This document shows, in pieces, positions 8,151-8,941 of a stretch of 35,973 nt of DNA. Location of the stretch: positions 1 through 35,973 of the forward strand of contig JAVHLY010000029.1 in assembly GCA_031081585.1 (NCBI GenBank), given 5' to 3'. The position numbers and the translations under genes were made by a program. The notes beneath the pieces are model-generated. The model was not told where the DNA came from. It searched no databases and saw nothing but the letters and a program-made list of their open reading frames with translations. Positions within the stretch are counted from its first letter, which is position 1, and every line of letters starts with the position of its first letter. The stretch comes from Armatimonadota bacterium. GTDB lineage: Bacteria; Sysuimicrobiota; Sysuimicrobiia; Sysuimicrobiales; Humicultoraceae.

Positions 8151-8188
8151 AGTACGAGGATGATCATCGCCCCATCGAGGAGCATAGC

Positions 8189-8941
8189 ATGCCCTTCCTG
8201 ACCGACCGGGACGCCGAGGTGATCCGCCGACGCTTCGCCGCCGACCTGGAGGCGCCGGTGCGCCTGCTGCTCTTCCTGCCCACCCTGGGCGGGCTCGCCC
8301 TCGCCGGGCAGGACTCGGAGATCCCCGAGTACACCCGCCGCCTGGTGCACGAGGTGGCCGCGCTCTCGGACCGGCTCCGGGTCGAGGAGGCCAGCCTGGT
8401 CTCCCAGGGCGACCTGGCCGCCCGCTACGGGGTGGCCTACGCGCCGACGCTGGTCTTCCTGCGGGAGACCGACGGCGGCCCGCCCCAGGACCTGGGGCTG
8501 CGCTACGTGGGGCTGCCCGGCGGGTACGAGCTGGTGACGCTGCTGGAGATGGTCATCGGCGTCTCCCGCGGCCGCCCCGACCTAGCCCCTGAGACGGTGG
8601 CGCGGCTGGAGGGGCTCGGCCGCGACGTGCACCTGCAGGTCTTCGTCACCCCCACCTGACCACACTGTCCCCGCGCGGCCAGGCTGGCCGCGCACCTGGC
8701 CATCGCCTCCCCGCGCGTGCGCACGGACGTCGTGGAGGTCTCCGAGTTCCCGGACCTGGCGCAGCGGTACAACGTCTATGCCGTGCCGAAGACGGTGGTG
8801 AACGACGCCTACGAGATCGTGGGGGCCCTGCCCGAGCGGCAGTTCGTGGAGGCGGTGCTGCGTGGGGCGGAAGGTCAGGAGGCCGAGGGGGAGGGGTCGG
8901 ACACCGCGGGGGAGACCACCCCGATCGAGTCCGACGGCTGA
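8189..8941 (+). CDS. Putative selenocysteine-containing two-domain thioredoxin-fold protein (PDO-like), in-frame TGA at 8657-8659
   Basis: Seen: ATG 8189 with GAGGAG 6 bases upstream, an open frame to TGA 8657-8659, and the same frame continuing to TGA 8939-8941. Read through, this gives 250 residues with the typical layout of a protein-disulfide-oxidoreductase/glutaredoxin-like family member. The N-terminal thioredoxin fold (about 1-125) has GVAYAPTLVFL with the cis-Pro. The second fold has VHLQVFVTPT, then [TGA]157-Pro-His-Cys160-PRAARLAAHLA, and a second cis-Pro segment YNVYAVPKTVVND. The TGA falls exactly on the first Cys of the expected CxxC, so the site would be UxxC. The N-terminal domain has no CxxC. 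A SECIS-like hairpin follows at 8673-8693. Alternatives are a nonsense mutation or a base error (TGC to TGA). The last 25 residues are acidic and low in complexity. Confidence 0.85.
8673..8693 (+). promoter_or_regulatory. Candidate bacterial SECIS element
   Basis: GCGCGGCCA (8673-8681) pairs perfectly with TGGCCGCGC (8685-8693) around an apical GGC loop (8682-8684). From the end of the TGA to the loop there are 22 bases. Known bacterial SECIS hairpins have an apical loop 16-37 bases after the UGA with a G in the first two loop positions, and this hairpin meets those rules. The CAGG-CUG apex resembles the E. coli fdhF apex (CAGGUCUG). It lies inside coding sequence, as expected for bacteria. 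Confidence 0.75.

Follow-up and report, generated by a model that had tools for sequence, protein, structure and literature searches.

Does the TGA that interrupts the reading frame at 8189-8941 of this Sysuimicrobiota contig end a gene, or does it encode selenocysteine (Sec) within a longer protein? An earlier note on the window (the whole 35,973-nt stretch of DNA that was analysed) had proposed a putative selenoprotein, and that reading is now strongly supported by the Sec machinery of the genome, the pairing of Cys and Sec at the site and a conserved SECIS-like hairpin. From these computed lines of evidence we infer that UGA157 is read as selenocysteine and that the gene encodes a selenoprotein, with a probability of roughly 0.93. 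Annotation pipelines otherwise cut the gene at residue 156, and the selenoprotein reading supplies the full gene, with the following landmarks:

8177-8182, + strand: GAGGAG Shine-Dalgarno-like motif, 6 nt 5' of the ATG, read from the sequence
8189-8941, + strand: predicted selenoprotein gene, 250 aa with UGA157 as Sec, homologue of the TIGR02187 PDO / AhpF N-terminal domain (215 bits versus a cut-off of 185)
8657-8659, + strand: TGA codon 157, predicted selenocysteine and first residue of U-P-H-C; in this column Cys homologues have TGT/TGC and other Sec forms have TGA
8666-8668, + strand: TGT codon 160, predicted resolving Cys and sole cysteine codon of the gene, from the translation and motif alignment

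Translation of 8189-8941 through the TGA yields 250 residues, with U157 in the context TPT-U-PHC-PRAARL; this is the single interrupting TGA of the frame, and the gene's own stop is a second TGA at 8939-8941. In a profile search, the joined protein matched TIGR02187 (NCBIfam short name PDO_seleno_TRX) at 215.3 bits over residues 6-224, a span that includes the TGA, so the proposal that one frame is coding on both sides of this codon holds. Pfam Thioredoxin_3 was matched by residues 148-224. The gene encodes a two-domain thioredoxin-fold oxidoreductase of the TIGR02187 family, probably cytosolic, and occurs once in the window's genome (2.88 Mb, 96.5% complete).

The fold was predicted with AlphaFold2 from an alignment of 26 window and locus sequences, and the model (pLDDT 91.6) consists of two fused thioredoxin folds:

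8201-8569, + strand: first thioredoxin fold (N-terminal domain), spanning approximately residues 5-127 and lacking a CxxC (structure model, motif alignment)
8627-8890, + strand: second thioredoxin fold (C-terminal domain), spanning approximately residues 147-234 and holding both the UPHC site and the cis-Pro region V199-P200 (Thioredoxin_3, model)

Its top fold matches in the PDB were PDOs, from Pyrococcus (1a8l, E = 1.4e-22) and from Aquifex, together with the AhpF N-terminal domain (5h29, TM 0.92 by target). Like the PDOs of Pyrococcus furiosus (1a8l; E = 3.6e-34 by sequence) and Aquifex aeolicus (2ayt), the window protein has a two-fold architecture over its full length. Canonical PDOs carry a CxxC in both halves, whereas the window protein pairs the two predicted tandem folds with a C-terminal site only, with Sec in place of the first Cys; in an alignment of homologues, the residues at the N-terminal CxxC position are SEIP. 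The description as a two-domain PDO is therefore right as to the two folds and wrong as to the two redox centres that it implied. Within the C-terminal domain the columns C157, C160 and P200 are invariant, and the window protein contains no Cys other than C160. Judged from these alignments, the predicted Sec157-Cys160 pair is the sole redox pair of the protein, leaving a single active site despite the two-domain fold because the N-terminal domain has no CxxC.

The N-terminal CxxC is missing from all TGA forms of families f1 and f3 as well and appears to have been lost in the clade of the window protein. Because the TGA forms of family f4 retain cysteines there, using Sec and losing the N-terminal site are separate traits; one clade of Caldisericota Cys forms likewise has no N-terminal site. 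These observations bear on the possibility that UGA157 is a regulated switch, at which, without selenium, a 156-residue N-terminal domain with a role of its own would be the main product. According to the model, termination at the UGA would leave the N-terminal fold complete. In this clade, however, that fold lacks active-site cysteines, which would make a shortened protein redox-inert, and a function for it has no independent support; we consider this reading highly unlikely.

The AhpF N-terminal domain, too, is a fusion of two thioredoxin folds, of which the second holds the one redox site. The window protein resembles this domain (1hyu, 1zyn, 5h29) in both respects, and because only its second fold is active, it is closer to the AhpF N-terminal domain than to a two-site PDO. 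It differs from AhpF in ending at residue 250 without a fused FAD/NADH reductase domain and in having Sec for the first Cys, and it scores 45 bits against the AhpF model TIGR03140 (cut-off 503).

The earlier note had asked for a search for the Sec machinery, and family searches of the window's genome found all four components, selA, selB, selC (tRNASec) and selD. The selA (561 bits) and selB (362 bits) matches both exceed the family cut-offs and form one cluster on contig C8 with a tRNASec of 78.7 bits and anticodon UCA, while selD (375 bits) lies on contig C23. The selD gene (L016:826-1752, genome G000) has an in-frame TGA of its own in the motif ACAG-U-ASK, at the known Sec place, and the selenophosphate synthetase is thus probably a selenoprotein as well. 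A search for formate dehydrogenase, another potential selenoprotein, gave a best match that fell below the cut-off and had no internal TGA. The complete machinery, together with the position of the codon at a redox-active Cys site, argues against TGA being reassigned to, or leakily read as, a residue such as Trp or Cys throughout the genome, without selenium. Such reassignment would explain that the codon is somehow read through, but TGA at 8939-8941 ends the same gene, and we regard it as less probable still than a regulated switch.

Across 43 genomes searched from the phylum, the TGA form was present in 21 and the Cys form alone in 7, and TGA forms also occur outside the phylum, in MAGs labelled Rokuibacteriota, Bacillota, Chloroflexota, Actinomycetota and Spirochaetota. 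One of the relatives' isolates, O5J2P.bin.109 (relative L020), is a Sysuimicrobiota member (PMC11604079). The codon at site 157 was TGA, TGT or TGC in all loci examined. The alignment of homologues at this column that had been called for thus returned Cys codons or TGA in every homologue checked, bearing out the placement of the TGA on the first Cys of the CxxC. Since 21 of the 43 phylum genomes, and scattered genomes from other phyla, have this codon at the corresponding site, the TGA at 8657-8659 is, by this comparison of genes, not a read error. Nor does the window's genome present the situation that had been named as telling against a selenoprotein, namely absence of selB and selC and a TGA confined to a lone strain: both genes are present and the TGA recurs in other genomes.

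Sec and Cys states on the tree need at least three changes on well-supported branches, and five by parsimony, although the number and direction of these changes are uncertain because of long branches. Sec and Cys PDO paralogues occur together in two genomes, G013 (L079 and L098) and G024 (L099 and L085), and a third (G004) has one Sec form and one partial Cys form. Such coexistence of the two types, seen in a few of the phylum's genomes, may point to divided roles.

Among the 21 genomes with the TGA form, selA exceeded the cut-off in 17, and tRNASec was found in two more (G012 and G019); in G019, it shares one contig with a selB-family fragment that is cut by the contig start. The four genomes without selA above the cut-off are all incomplete or fragmented assemblies, and they include G005 and G011 (69% and 72% complete), in which neither selA above the cut-off nor tRNASec was found. 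Elsewhere in the phylum, a genome with only a Cys-type PDO and no selA or selB above the cut-off (G040) has a strong tRNASec match of 81 bits (contig C14:31379-31467), which may be left over from a Sec trait since lost or may reflect machinery absent from the assembly. Two selA-selB pairs per genome were observed in G029 (contigs C34 and C11) and G028 (contigs C106 and C42), reflecting either real duplication or bin contamination.

Directly downstream of the TGA lies a candidate recoding signal:

8673-8693, + strand: predicted bSECIS hairpin GCGCGGCCA-GGC-TGGCCGCGC, -19.3 kcal/mol, with a 9-bp stem and a 3-nt loop starting GG

The bSECIS model specifies a loop of 3-9 nt, a stem of 4-16 bp, G in the first two loop positions, a spacing of 16-37 nt and an energy of <= -7.5 kcal/mol (PMC13188914). 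The window hairpin lies within all of these limits (loop GGC of 3 nt, stem of 9 bp, -19.3 kcal/mol), its loop beginning 22 nt after the TGA. We caution that hairpin energy alone was not significant at the 0.05 level under codon resampling for 8 of the 20 sequences, the background being GC-rich, and that the distant members L082 and L096 have a weak hairpin signal (codon-resampling P of 0.54 and 0.59) and a different loop. The argument for the putative hairpin is instead carried by synonymous conservation and by one arginine codon. Synonymous identity over codons 163-167 was 1.00, compared with a mean of 0.58 elsewhere (13 genomes, families f1 and f3), and the codon for Arg165 was AGG in 18 of 20 TGA genes but in none of the phylum's 9 Cys genes (Fisher P = 5e-6, kinship of the sequences being ignored); AGG makes up 2.3% of Arg codons in the window's genes and 4.5% in the remainder of the TGA genes. 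Stem pair 21-33 changes by compensation (GC in 16, AU in 3, CG in 1), and none of the slid versions of the helix reaches the observed pairing. A standard stop codon does interrupt the frame, but the idea that a decayed PDO gene owes this TGA to nonsense mutation or to a sequencing error is virtually untenable. It is already refuted by independent genomes (21 in the phylum, with several more from other phyla) that have the TGA at this site between intact flanking frames, and it is opposed by constraint on coding and synonymous codons downstream.

The view that UxxC sites in two-domain PDOs have been described little or not at all proved wrong: a 'homolog of AhpF, amino-terminal domain' was a selenoprotein family by 2006, known from Carboxydothermus hydrogenoformans and Symbiobacterium thermophilum (PMC1794560), TIGR02187 UxxC proteins are tabulated in reviews of 2022 and 2026 (PMC9312934, PMC13188914), and the NCBIfam short name itself refers to selenium. 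The family has been reported from Asgard archaea as well. The window protein shares with these Grx-like domain proteins (C. hydrogenoformans ABB15282.1, S. thermophilum) a family-model score above the cut-off, the UxxC motif and the class of predicted selenoprotein, the likeness to ABB15282.1 being one of family and motif, not of residues; it differs in its lineage, Sysuimicrobiota, and in the absence of the N-terminal CxxC from its clade. What is new here is the presence of TIGR02187 UxxC members in Sysuimicrobiota and this loss in the window's clade. The paper describing Sysuimicrobiota does not mention selenium, although our literature check for other papers was not exhaustive. The gene points to selenoprotein use in Sysuimicrobiota, and a comparison of the naturally occurring forms (two sites with Cys, two sites with Sec, one site with Sec) could test what selenium adds in a PDO.

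In the selenoprotein reading, SelB and Sec-tRNASec would decode UGA157 as selenocysteine, guided by the hairpin directly downstream. In thioredoxin-fold chemistry the first residue of such a motif is the nucleophile and the second the resolving residue; given this and the place of the UxxC, Sec157 would be the nucleophile and Cys160 the resolving residue, with a selenenylsulfide as the oxidised state. The first fold, which has no site, may serve for structure or docking, with the second bearing the site as in the AhpF N-terminal domain. Electrons would most likely pass from an NAD(P)H-dependent thioredoxin reductase through the protein to disulfide or peroxiredoxin substrates, because the genome has a thioredoxin reductase (402 bits, contig C16) and seven AhpC/TSA-family matches (contigs C17 and C6 among them). 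That the protein is a dithiol shuttle of the AhpF-N/PDO type, with thioredoxin reductase as its reductant, stands at about even odds, the partners being guesses because no redox partner conserved next to the gene was seen among the relatives' loci. More tentatively, a two-site PDO may, in the window's Sysuimicrobiota branch, have become a one-site enzyme with Sec-Cys as its only centre, a free-standing selenium AhpF N-terminal domain that could serve its own thioredoxin reductase and peroxiredoxin.

Neighbouring genes include an M20-type peptidase (named by eye from sequence) downstream, in family f3 only, and an opposite-strand gene upstream in some relatives. Elsewhere in the window, an FMN riboswitch (288-432, 98 bits) lies ahead of an apparent riboflavin gene cluster whose frames, named by eye, extend to about 4043.
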